IMG/VR virus record: IMGVR_UViG_3300002141_000039
Coordinates: 1 to 31,054 of that record
Reading direction: 5' to 3' (one strand)
Origin: a virus
DNA: 31,054 bases
Shown here: positions 23,809 to 27,289 of the stretch, piece by piece
How the letters are laid out: every line of letters begins with the position of its first letter
Position numbering within the stretch: position 1 is the stretch's first letter
Translations under genes and position numbers: made by a program
The notes under the pieces: model-generated
Told to the model about the DNA's origin: nothing
The model's input: only the letters and a program-made list of their open reading frames with translations
Databases searched by the model: none

Positions 23809-25185
23809 TTATTCCTCATCCCCCATGTGCGACTTCCATTTATTTGAAATCATCTTTTTTACAAGATTTTCACCTTCGTTCATCTCCTGAATAGCAGACA
23901 TACCTTCTCTCGATTTTTCGTCGAAGATTTGAATGTCACCACAACTTGCATTCATTCGACTTGGGAAAGTCAAACCATCTGGACCGAATCGGTTTTTGAT
24001 AATGTGCATACGTGCAGTGTTGCTTACTTTATCATTCACTTTACGAGATACGCTCATAACGAAATCGGCGGTCATAATTTTTCGATAACTATCCGAAATG
24101 TTATTTGCTTGAATAATATCCTCTTCCATAGCTGCACGATTACTTTGTGAAGCAGTCCAGATAGGAATTTGTAATTCCCCCGCGACACCACGTAATTCTT
24201 CGTAAATACCCCCAGCCTCACTATAACTGTTACTATTCTTATCAGATTGGGATGGTCGTAGAATGTCGGCATAATCGACAATCATCAAATCAATCTTCGT
24301 TCCCAACATTTGAATTCGTTCTGCGTGCATTTTCAATGTTGTTGCACTGACGGTTTTAATTGGAAAGTATTTGATAATCAATTTACCCGGAACTTTTGAA
24401 ATCTTGTCCTTGACAATCGAAACATTGTTACGAATGTTTTGGAAATCAATTCCAGTAAAACAACTATCATATCGAAGACCGACATAATTTTCGTTCAATT
24501 CCAAAGTGACGTGTAAAACATTTTTACCCTGTTTCATTGCTTCCGCACCGATACGTGCCAAAACCCAACTCTTACCTGCGCCAGCACATGCGGTTATGAC
24601 TCCCAACTCACCACCAGCCAATCCACCGTCCATAATACTGTCAACGACTGCCCAGTTTGTTTTCAGTGTATTTCTAGCCATGACACTCATACGGGTTTCA
24701 ATTTCAACCATATAATCATGACCAACATTTCTCTCCATACCAGCCTTCAATGCGTCTTGGACAATTCGAGAAATTTTATCATACTCACCACCACGGATTA
24801 AATCCACACTGGATAGAATCGCACCCTTCATTGTCTGATTACGACAAAATTCGAGGTATTGTTCTTTGACGAATTTAATGTCACTTTCACTGATTTTTTG
24901 ATAGACCAATTTTAATTGGTCGATAACGGATTTTTTAAGGACATCCGTTTCAATGGTGTCTACATGTACTTTAAATACATTAAGTGTTGGTATATCTTTA
25001 TACTGTAAGAAGTATGACACAGTTGTTTTTACAATCCATTGGTGTGCATCCGACTCGAAACTGGTTGGGTCAATAATATCGCAAACTCTTTCCAAGAAAG
25101 ACTTATCACTGAGGATGCTTGATATACATTTGATTTGAAATTCAGGACCGTATTTTTTTAAGTTATCAATAATTTGTTTTTCCAT
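23809..25185 (-). CDS. Replicative DNA helicase (DnaB / T4 gp41-like)
   Basis: A 458-aa RecA-fold hexameric helicase. The N-terminal helical domain covers about 1-150. Walker A is ACAGAGKS (199-206), Walker B LMIVDYADI (about 287-295), and the IWTASQSNRAAM and HIIKNRFGPDG segments match the DnaB/gp41 motif 3-4 region with its arginine. The C-terminus is acidic (MGDEE). It unwinds duplex DNA ahead of the polymerase and normally partners with a primase, which is not in this window. AAAGAG lies before the ATG at 25185. It is the first leftward gene after the divergent plus-strand cassette. Confidence 0.92.
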   Translation of the reverse strand: MEKQIIDNLKKYGPEFQIKCISSILSDKSFLERVCDIIDPTSFESDAHQWIVKTTVSYFLQYKDIPTLNVFKVHVDTIETDVLKKSVIDQLKLVYQKISESDIKFVKEQYLEFCRNQTMKGAILSSVDLIRGGEYDKISRIVQDALKAGMERNVGHDYMVEIETRMSVMARNTLKTNWAVVDSIMDGGLAGGELGVITACAGAGKSWVLARIGAEAMKQGKNVLHVTLELNENYVGLRYDSCFTGIDFQNIRNNVSIVKDKISKVPGKLIIKYFPIKTVSATTLKMHAERIQMLGTKIDLMIVDYADILRPSQSDKNSNSYSEAGGIYEELRGVAGELQIPIWTASQSNRAAMEEDIIQANNISDSYRKIMTADFVMSVSRKVNDKVSNTARMHIIKNRFGPDGLTFPSRMNASCGDIQIFDEKSREGMSAIQEMNEGENLVKKMISNKWKSHMGDEE

Positions 25186-25236
25186 ATGTTCTCTTTATAC
25201 GTAATCAAAATAATACTATAAAAAATAAAAGACAAA

Positions 25237-25312
25237 TTGTTTTACTATCGGATCACTACTTATATTCGTGGACACATAAAGTTTGTGGTCACAGAAATCC
25301 GCTGTAGAGCGG
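25237..25312 (+). promoter_or_regulatory. Leader of the plus-strand gene: candidate promoter and hairpin
   Basis: A weak promoter match, TTGTTT (25237-25242), 18 bases, TATATT (25261-25266), is followed by an imperfect stem (25268-25276 with 25283-25291) and a tight CCGCT-GTAG-AGCGG hairpin (25299-25312), 19 bases before the ATG at 25332. The intergenic region also holds the divergent helicase leader. The AAAGGTAAT SD sequence is just outside the hairpin. Confidence 0.35.
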
Positions 25313-25331
25313 CTTAAACAATAAAGGTAAT

Positions 25332-26132
25332 ATGTATAATGTTAATATTGAGGCTAATGTCCTCATCAATGGTAAACCCGTCGCTACTTATCGAAAAGAT
25401 GGTAAAGTCTACGTCGAAGCAAAAGAAGGTAGTGAATATGAAATCCAAATCAAAAACAACCTGTGGAAACGTATTCTAGCCATATCAAGTGTTGATGGTT
25501 TGAATGTATTAAATGGAGAATCTGATTCTCCCGATGATAGTGGTTATGTCATCAATGGATACAATAGTTATCGAATCAAAGGGTTTCGATATAGTGATGA
25601 AAAAGTTGGTGCCTTCAAATTCGTGAAGAAAGAAAATTCCTACGCATCTGATAAAAAGGATGGTTCTGATGCTAACTGTGGCATTATCGGAATTCGAATT
25701 TACGATGAATATACCACACCCGTTTCCACATACTATCGTCCGTTGGAAACCAATGGAGGTTGGGATAATCTTCCACCTTATACAATGACTTGTAATAGCA
25801 ATGGTGTATTACGAAGTATGAATATGAGTAACTCATCCGATAACAGTTTGAGTTTAGATTCCGCATGTTATTCATCTCAATTAAGTGATACAACTACTAA
25901 TCAAGTAAAATCGTTGTCTTTTGACATGGGTTCTACATGGGGTGAATCGAAAGAAAGTAAAGTCACATCCACCACCTTCCAAAAGGGGTCGATGGTATTC
26001 TCCTTAGATATTTACTATGCTTCTCGTCAATCGTTGATTGAAATGGGAGTGATTGAAGCAAACAAACCACAAGTTGCATTTCCAAACAGTTTTCCGAGAT
26101 ATGCAACCCCACCTAAAAATTGGGTAGGATAA
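25332..26132 (+). CDS. Conserved beta-rich protein of unknown function, isolated rightward gene
   Basis: A 266-aa protein, the only clear rightward gene. The N-terminal half looks like a conserved family found also in bacterial genomes: DGKVYVEAKEGSEYEIQIKN, WKRILAISSVDGLNVLNG, SGYVINGYNSYRIKGFRYSD and KVGAFKFVKKENSYA, ending in GIIGIRIYDE (about 10-136). The C-terminal half (137-266) is serine/asparagine-rich with MGSTWGESKESKV and no family I know. No signal peptide or membrane helix. The SD sequence AAAGGTAAT precedes the ATG. The gene sits between its own leader and a strong terminator, opposite to its neighbours, like a self-contained moron. Function unknown. Confidence 0.88.
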   Translation: MYNVNIEANVLINGKPVATYRKDGKVYVEAKEGSEYEIQIKNNLWKRILAISSVDGLNVLNGESDSPDDSGYVINGYNSYRIKGFRYSDEKVGAFKFVKKENSYASDKKDGSDANCGIIGIRIYDEYTTPVSTYYRPLETNGGWDNLPPYTMTCNSNGVLRSMNMSNSSDNSLSLDSACYSSQLSDTTTNQVKSLSFDMGSTWGESKESKVTSTTFQKGSMVFSLDIYYASRQSLIEMGVIEANKPQVAFPNSFPRYATPPKNWVG

Positions 26133-26150
26133 CAAATAATTGCAATAAAC

Positions 26151-26180
26151 AACCCCTCGGTTTTTGCCGAGGGGTTTTTG
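26151..26180. terminator. Strong terminator after the plus-strand gene
   Basis: AACCCCTCGG (26151-26160) pairs with CCGAGGGGTT (26167-26176) around a TTTTTG loop, followed by a T-rich run on the plus strand and preceded by A residues. It ends the rightward gene and, because the next gene at 26222 is leftward, separates the convergent transcripts. The stem is 10 bp and GC-rich. Confidence 0.92.
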
Positions 26181-26221
26181 TTTTTACCAAGGATACGGTT
26201 GTATAGCTGTCTATAAATAGT

Positions 26222-27289
26222 TTAGACTTTGATGAAGTTATCAAGTTTTCCAAATGCTTCAGTCAACCAAACATTTGCGTTTGGAATGTTATTCCAAATC
26301 TTGTCTTCCCGCATCATTCCAATGAATTGCATTCTATTCAATTTATTGATTGATGTATCGACTATTTCTTCAATTCTCAATTGTGTAAAACTTTGAATTT
26401 GTGTATCGTTCAATTGCATCAAGTCATAATTCCTCTGAACTATGTCCCGGTTTTCAAGAATGGTGTCATGCAATTTATATCTACCCTTGTTGGTATCACA
26501 ATAGTTTATGATTTCATCCACACTATATCGGTGGTTGTGTTCAAAAATGGGGAAACATTTTTTGATGGTTTTTAATCCCGCACCACGGATGCCGTTGATA
26601 TTGTCACTTACATCTCCTTCGAGGACTCGGTAATTGACAAAATTTTCACAACTGATTCCATATTCCAAAAGAATCTCGGCACAACCGTAGAGTTTTTTCT
26701 TTGTCGAACTCCAAATTTTCACACGACTACTGGCCAATTGTAAGAAGTCTTTATCCGACGACATTATCGTAACATTACTATCTTTGAATTTATCCAAAGC
26801 CAAATATGCAATAACGTCATCTGCTTCTACATTGTCAATAGCCATGACGGTCAATGGTAAACAATCAAGATACCCAACCGTGCGAATCAGTTGTTTTTTT
26901 AGATTCGCTTCTTCTTCATCGGGAGATGAATTTTCCAAATATGTCCGATTGATACGGACTTTGGTGACTCGTTTGTTCTTATAATCTGGATACAACTTTC
27001 GTCGTTTTTGACTTCCACCACTTCCATCGAATACAATGACGCATCGAGTTGGGTTAAAAAGTTTGATGGCATATCCGATACTTTTCAAAAAGCCGGATAT
27101 GCCACCAGTATGAACTCCATCATCATTCATGTAAGGAGATACAGACCAAGATTTTATGAATTGATTCAACCCGTCGATAATTAGAATATCGGAGGATTGC
27201 GTTTTTTGCAATCCATCGTCTTTCATTTCATCTTTGATATTCTCAAATAATGAAAATAATTTCTTCTTTTCTGACGCATTGAAGTCCAT
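26222..27289 (-). CDS. 5'-3' exonuclease / flap endonuclease (T4 RNase H-like)
   Basis: A 355-aa PIN-fold nuclease. Metal-site segments are LIIDGLNQFIKSW near residues 31-43, VIVFDGSGGSQKRRKLYPDY, AIDNVEADDVIAYLA and MSSDKDFLQLAS, followed by the helix-hairpin-helix-like EGDVSDNINGIRGAGLKTIKK. It would remove RNA primers and 5' flaps during lagging-strand synthesis. GGAAGA precedes the ATG. It starts two bases after the stop of the UvsX gene, so the two are cotranscribed. The phage lacks any visible polymerase I 5'-nuclease domain in the partial polymerase at the right edge, so this gene probably supplies that activity. Confidence 0.93.
   Translation of the reverse strand: MDFNASEKKKLFSLFENIKDEMKDDGLQKTQSSDILIIDGLNQFIKSWSVSPYMNDDGVHTGGISGFLKSIGYAIKLFNPTRCVIVFDGSGGSQKRRKLYPDYKNKRVTKVRINRTYLENSSPDEEEANLKKQLIRTVGYLDCLPLTVMAIDNVEADDVIAYLALDKFKDSNVTIMSSDKDFLQLASSRVKIWSSTKKKLYGCAEILLEYGISCENFVNYRVLEGDVSDNINGIRGAGLKTIKKCFPIFEHNHRYSVDEIINYCDTNKGRYKLHDTILENRDIVQRNYDLMQLNDTQIQSFTQLRIEEIVDTSINKLNRMQFIGMMREDKIWNNIPNANVWLTEAFGKLDNFIKV

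Follow-up and report, generated by a model that had tools for sequence, protein, structure and literature searches.

A reverse-oriented accessory gene with a conserved leader RNA element in the replication gene cluster of a T4-like phage

Analysis of a viral DNA stretch of 31,054 nucleotides (the window, meaning the whole stretch) revealed a T4-like phage segment in which the helicase, exonuclease, UvsX-like recombinase and ribonucleotide reductase genes are all leftward and a single gene, for a protein of 266 aa, runs against them, behind a short RNA element that its relatives share. Comparison of related sequences identifies this gene as a self-contained accessory unit of long standing, oriented against the T4-like replication gene cluster, and the joint claim of a self-contained unit with a conserved RNA element is held with high confidence. 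The best overall explanation, in which such a unit would have dedicated RNA control and a late or virion-associated product, stands at an even balance. The features concerned are the following.

23809..25185, - strand: left neighbour, gp41-like DnaB helicase (phrog_19, E 1.9e-74)
25237..25263, + strand: promoter-like motif TTGTTTTA-N12-TACTTAT, of putative function
about 25265-25296, + strand: upstream imperfect leader hairpin, from folding, peculiar to this phage
25294..25318, + strand: conserved leader RNA element GAAAU-CCGC-UGUAGA-GCGG-CUUAA (R1 match, covariation)
25323-25327, + strand: Shine-Dalgarno-like AAAGG, read from the sequence
25332-26132, + strand: the gene, 266 aa, a two-module beta-sandwich protein with no signal peptide
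25344..25715, + strand: module A (aa 5-128), beta-sandwich body with SVDGLNV motif, conserved in A1/A3; pLDDT block means mostly 88-98
25716..25916, + strand: variable, mostly disordered linker (aa 129-195); pLDDT mostly <50 at 152-186
25917..26054, + strand: module B (aa 196-241), beta hairpin and helix, GSTWGE...YYASRQSLIEMGV; pLDDT block means 95-97 for 201-240
26151..26186, + strand: intrinsic terminator (hairpin 26151-26176; 11 bp, 7 GC pairs, then TTTGTTTTTA)
26222..27289, - strand: right neighbour, 5'-3' exonuclease, the RNase H-like protein of T4 phages (phrog_107, E 6.3e-31; Pfam 5_3_exonuc_N, 7.9e-30)

The gene unit and its site

The isolated rightward gene described in the earlier note was borne out: it lies between the leftward helicase and the leftward exonuclease and, by eye, is the only rightward entry in the window's list of open reading frames that is not nested in a larger leftward one. 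A terminator-like hairpin was found no more than 110 nt from the stop codon in 18 of 30 loci of the helicase-exonuclease site, the window counted, where shuffled sequences lead to an expectation of 0.8. The window's own terminator had been called strong and bidirectional; it is strong on the + strand, but 'bidirectional' is only half true, because on the - strand the identical stem is followed by the weak tail GTTTATTGCA. The Shine-Dalgarno sequence, called good, is present though merely fair. Further upstream, the motif TTGTTTTA-N12-TACTTAT has one exact match in the window (three if 2 mismatches are allowed, against an expectation of 1.7). Close relatives show, by eye, the same layout upstream of the gene, with a looser form also elsewhere in some of them, and the -10 motif is present in 22 of 24 leaders, a modest excess over the shuffle mean of 15.9.

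Relatives of the gene were located in IMG/VR by a first scan (17 loci) and an alignment scan (67 loci), together 68 loci (L002-L018 and L022-L072), and in four records of named phages (Atu_ph07 twice, RHph_I1_18 and Phosso). A single-protein search of bacterial genome contigs returned no relative; the alignment search found 203 bacterial stretches that encode one, and the 80 best loci were retained. The gene occupies the same place and orientation in 40 viral loci, near-copies included, with helicase and exonuclease both on the contig in 38. A search based on the neighbours (best 80 per neighbour) added 153 loci (L153-L305); the gene is present in at least 13 of them, in part on contigs known from the earlier scans.

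A helicase tree was built from 123 distinct rows drawn from the gene-based and neighbour-based searches. Thirty-four rows have the gene, 79 lack it and leave a helicase-exonuclease gap of 400 nt or less (7 in L155, 51 in L157), and 10 are of other kinds; this ratio is not a frequency, because the gene itself had also served to retrieve the rows that bear it. The comparison of presence and absence proposed in the earlier note, run in this way, places the gene among those that are not universally present. Its distribution on the tree requires only 4 changes (shuffled mean 29.5; none of 500 shuffles as low), with the gene in all 11 rows of the window's own group and in none of the 16 rows of the sister group, and it is therefore an old, persistent gene, for the most part inherited in place, and not a recent arrival. 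Among 26 whole records, mostly from phages with the empty site, 5 contain the gene and 21 do not, although the records may be fragments. It lies at the usual place in G037 and elsewhere in G025, G027, G029 and G039; these four come from one clade that lacks the gene at the usual site, and at its other place the gene has its leader, there in a form with an AUUGU loop.

Some loci of the group show additional genes. In L027 (1841-4809) a 312-aa open reading frame, probably an inserted element, splits the helicase gene, and in L034 (3659-4909) and L035 (3555-4901) the helicase is separated from the gene studied here by a further rightward gene, whose repeated Cys motifs resemble zinc ribbons by eye.

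The arrangement had been likened in the earlier note to that of phage morons, and this comparison stood in part. As in morons, the gene forms an independent unit with its own terminator, leader and promoter-like region, in reverse orientation, inserted between genes that adjoin in relatives (79 of the 123 helicase rows), many of which lack it. Unlike morons, it has a base composition native to its surroundings (G+C 0.371, against 0.360 for the window), has persisted long at one site with few changes on the tree, and carries a dedicated conserved RNA leader. A classical moron, whose product would act on the host cell in infection (envelope, exclusion or defence) and whose position would be incidental, is a possible but rather doubtful reading, on which the properties of the protein also bear (see below).

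The leader RNA element

Two leader hairpins had been proposed upstream of the gene. The region 25262-25345 folds at -18.3 kcal/mol (z -2.1), with 5 of 200 shuffles equally good. The hairpin nearest the ATG (25299-25312) is real and is kept in relatives; the upstream one folds as well, though it is specific to this phage, since most relatives lack that stretch. The short leader follows a simple plan: GAAAU, a 4-bp stem and a loop of (U/G/A)GUA type. This element precedes the ribosome-binding site in 24 distinct leaders of helicase-exonuclease copies, the window included, which were chosen by the pattern AAT[CT]-N3-5-[TGA]GTA, complementarity not being required.

The stem was examined in 20 short-form leaders (among them the window and L046, which comes from another genome context) together with 4 leaders with the AUUGU loop. 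Outside the count were L004, L023, L025, L035 and L043 (alignment A2, close to others in the set), L326, which was found later, and the second-class L327, whose stem lies in another register. All 24 stems are fully paired; they comprise 12 distinct stems with 48 of 48 Watson-Crick pairs, a result never reached in 20000 re-pairings of the arms. In alignment A6 (16 leaders with a 7-nt loop) pairing is 100% and covariation 0.987, versus at most 0.199 with the arms slid. The window leader, whose row is outside A6, the alignment of the R1 model, matches R1 with 28.7 bits (E 2.3e-5). A second stem enclosing the short hairpin was not supported (568 of 2000 swaps equally good), and the idea of a CRISPR-repeat-like hairpin was dropped, as there is roughly one element per phage and its stem is free to vary.

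The short leader is almost exclusive to this gene. Among 58 sources R1 detects the leader in 25; these are its 25 best matches, and all lie directly upstream of the gene. On whole records it matches the leader in 14 of 15, with the best match at the gene. One exact form of the leader is found on 13 contigs across IMG/VR: 11 before this gene, one (L361, 751-1483) before a lone vWA-domain gene on a 69-kb contig without the gene, and one (L363) with arms that do not pair, a chance match. The R1 leader is absent from six loci at the same site (L011, L012, L013, L016, L017 and L018) and from all 31 bacterial loci tested. L011, L016, L017 and L018 have a different, two-hairpin leader, and its second hairpin, CUCC-AAA-GGAG, is placed so that it would mask the ribosome-binding site. 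No match to the window was found among 4227 Rfam families at the gathering score, and 12 related loci gave only 2 tRNA matches; the leader literature consulted was that on freshwater-2.

Judged from these alignments, the leader displays what is expected of a candidate riboswitch or protein-bound leader, namely a structure that is conserved, covaries and precedes the members of a single gene family, and the balance tips towards its controlling the output of its gene. The reader of the conserved loop and flanks, beside the ribosome-binding site, would most simply be a protein, which may be the gene's own product, the vWA partner described below or a host factor. T4 genes 32 and 43 have autoregulatory leaders, and by analogy the present one may be compared with them as a small structured element that serves one phage gene and lies near its ribosome-binding site. 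It is unlikely that the hairpin is a mere stabiliser of the 5' end of the mRNA whose shared loop reflects the descent of one insert. In many relatives the hairpin does appear close to the presumed transcript start, as estimated, which would suit a stabiliser; however, the stem sequence has turned over to 12 forms while the loop and flanks stay alike, and a conserved loop is not needed for stabilising. Elements of the same plan are also present in distant phages, where promoter and genome position are different, and one copy sits on another gene.

The two-module protein and its relatives

The AlphaFold2 model of the product, calculated with 51 rows (mean pLDDT 82.9, pTM 0.72), shows residues 1-126 as a beta-sandwich and residues 199-240 as a beta hairpin plus helix, with disorder in between. 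The length and make-up of the linker vary widely among relatives, and that of L069 contains a collagen-like GXY run. The order of the modules differs between phages and bacteria. The viral rows, counting the window, the three named phages and near-copies, have A-B in 71 of 72 cases and A only in one, and the bacterial rows have B-A in 75 of 87, A-B in 11 and A only in one, a swap that looks like a circular permutation. In a simple reading of the model the hairpin would complete the sandwich, so that module order would be free; alignments to PDB folds spanning about residue 2 to 232 fit this arrangement without proving it. The likeness to bacterial proteins that had been noticed for the N-terminal half was confirmed and extends to the C-terminal part. 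Several Acinetobacter and Psychrobacter loci (among L073-L152) have two copies of the gene in tandem.

A simple rule based on N-terminal hydrophobicity and the lipobox classes most bacterial rows as probably exported, mostly as lipoproteins (hydrophobic N-terminus in 69 of 87, lipobox in 57), and no viral row does (0 of 72). As a signal peptide is absent, the phage product is predicted to be cytoplasmic or part of the virion. These data touch the moron reading on both sides: exported bacterial relatives, and a glycosyltransferase neighbour in L044, would be in keeping with action on the host envelope, while the missing signal peptide and the lack of any match to the PADLOC defence families argue against it.

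No known family accounts for the protein. Module A aligns with DUF7918 (PF25534) over aa 6-128 (E 0.0019), and 7 of 16 relatives match that family at E up to 0.5 (best 1.6e-8), but the score of 18.7 bits falls below the cut-off of 27 and the protein was not assigned to it. The literature searched held no paper on DUF7918 by name and no function for this protein family. Neither NCBIfam nor PADLOC has a family for the window protein, PHROGs gave only E 0.04-0.05, and a search of the PDB by sequence returned no match. At the fold level the best PDB results (Foldseek E 0.072; VIA Z 6.6, rmsd 2.1 over 70 aligned residues) lie within the range common to Ig-like sandwiches, and for this reason no PDB family is named. 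Foldseek against BFVD gave 24 matches at E 0.001 or lower, with one Rhizobium phage and one marine phage among them. The matches in eukaryotic DNA viruses are to uncharacterised proteins of giant viruses, iridoviruses, a granulovirus and nudiviruses (e.g. Pithovirus W5S497, E 3.8e-10; ISKNV ORF098, 8.2e-8), with identities of 18% or less, the likeness coming from the fold and not from the sequence.

Jumbo phages, the vWA partner and the role of the product

Jumbo phages often carry the gene in an operon with a vWA-domain gene. The two genes adjoin in all 15 loci with a vWA match, with vWA upstream in 9 and downstream in 6; most of these loci were fetched through the gene itself, and L061/L062 and L052/L063 are near-copies. 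Operons in which vWA comes first start with a longer, nested leader with two covarying helices. Its alignment A9 (9 leaders, of which L067 is not vWA-first) is 96.8% paired, with 7 pairs showing two-sided change, and the derived R2 model found leaders outside its building set (L051, E 4.7e-4; L061, 7e-4). The part GCAGNNAAGNCC of this leader is not abundant, with 0-7 matches per record, and both of those in Atu_ph07 fall within the leader. The L066 leader resembles the freshwater-2 RNA (Rfam RF02980), in which a hairpin is followed by an AAGGAG site and ATG, but the match is weak, and at 17.2 bits, where the gathering score is 49.9, membership was rejected.

The vWA partner appears to belong to some lineages only, because a reverse search starting from vWA recovered no locus out of 80 with the gene within about 4 kb; a leader shared by vWA genes in general was likewise rejected (1 of 80). 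In 16 of 24 whole records searched vWA is absent, and in G004, G006 and G007 it is present away from the gene. These results weigh on the proposal of an intracellular chaperone-like or sensor pair, in which the beta-sandwich would be the client or ligand of the vWA (MIDAS) protein in assembly or proteolysis. The adjacency in 15 of 15 loci (biased as stated), the structured leader before vWA-first operons and the short leader before the lone vWA gene of L361 are in its favour. A MoxR-vWA pair has been proposed for virion assembly in jumbo phages, according to the portion of PMC7824862 available, a likeness restricted by the partner, which here is a beta-sandwich; in Atu_ph07 the vWA gene adjoins that of ClpS (gp708, in the available portion of PMC6102473). 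Counted from ClpS, the pair in Atu_ph07 would be gp706 and gp707. Against the pair stand the empty reverse search and the T4-like relatives, most of which lack vWA (present in 3 of the 14 records G001-G014), and it is judged quite unlikely.

Three forms of the leader can be distinguished: the short one with loop UGUAUGA, the one with loop AUUGU and the nested jumbo form with loop AAGUCG. They are treated as one family since plan and context are shared. A plausible reading of the comparisons, which falls a little short of even confidence, is that they constitute a phage-borne RNA control class for a small regulon (the beta-sandwich gene and the vWA partner) that would have moved with both between T4-like and jumbo phages and may be autoregulatory or ligand-sensing.

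The distribution of late promoter motifs, which bears on the earlier note's suggestion that the gene may be expressed at a different time from its neighbours, differs between the groups. The T4 late motif TATAAATA was not found before the window gene, and a T4 late promoter was rejected there: in the window clade the exact motif occurs in 1 of 28 loci (1.6 expected) and the relaxed one upstream of the gene in 4 of 28 (3.7 expected), with no excess. In other phages the relaxed motif lies upstream of the gene in 14 of 24 cases versus 1.4 expected, and all 9 vWA-first jumbo operons are preceded by it, 5 of them by TATAAATA exactly. A late sigma factor, gp694, has been reported from the jumbo phage Atu_ph07 (PMC6102473, in the portion available). 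The window contains five TATAAATA sites, near chance (3.5 expected); all five (7118, 20974, 21633, 26212 and 30588) are on the + strand, opposing the leftward genes.

The jumbo late motifs, nearby packaging and tail genes, the collagen-like run of L069 and the tolerated absence of the gene incline the interpretation towards a late or virion role. The portal gene lies 89 nt downstream in L051 and a terminase 1.7 kb downstream in L049; in L056 the upstream side has a weak match to a tail fibre (E 3.3e-4). Against such a role, the window clade has no late-motif enrichment and its neighbours are replication genes; elsewhere they are the L044 glycosyltransferase and a DNA polymerase exonuclease subunit (L045). 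On these genomic contexts a dispensable late or virion-associated factor, for decoration or assembly, is offered as a tentative proposal that may well not hold. T4 Hoc and Soc are dispensable accessory decoration proteins, and Hoc has Ig-like domains. The product would be comparable to them in its dispensable accessory role and, in the case of Hoc, its Ig-like domains, a likeness drawn by analogy from the genes alone, and in jumbo phages it would work with the vWA protein encoded next to it.

Accessory genes are frequent in phages, but one that keeps its own covarying RNA element across genome places and distant phages points to tight control of dose. The leader element may serve as a searchable handle for the regulon, and the protein family has members in both phages and bacteria and perhaps a structural counterpart in giant viruses.
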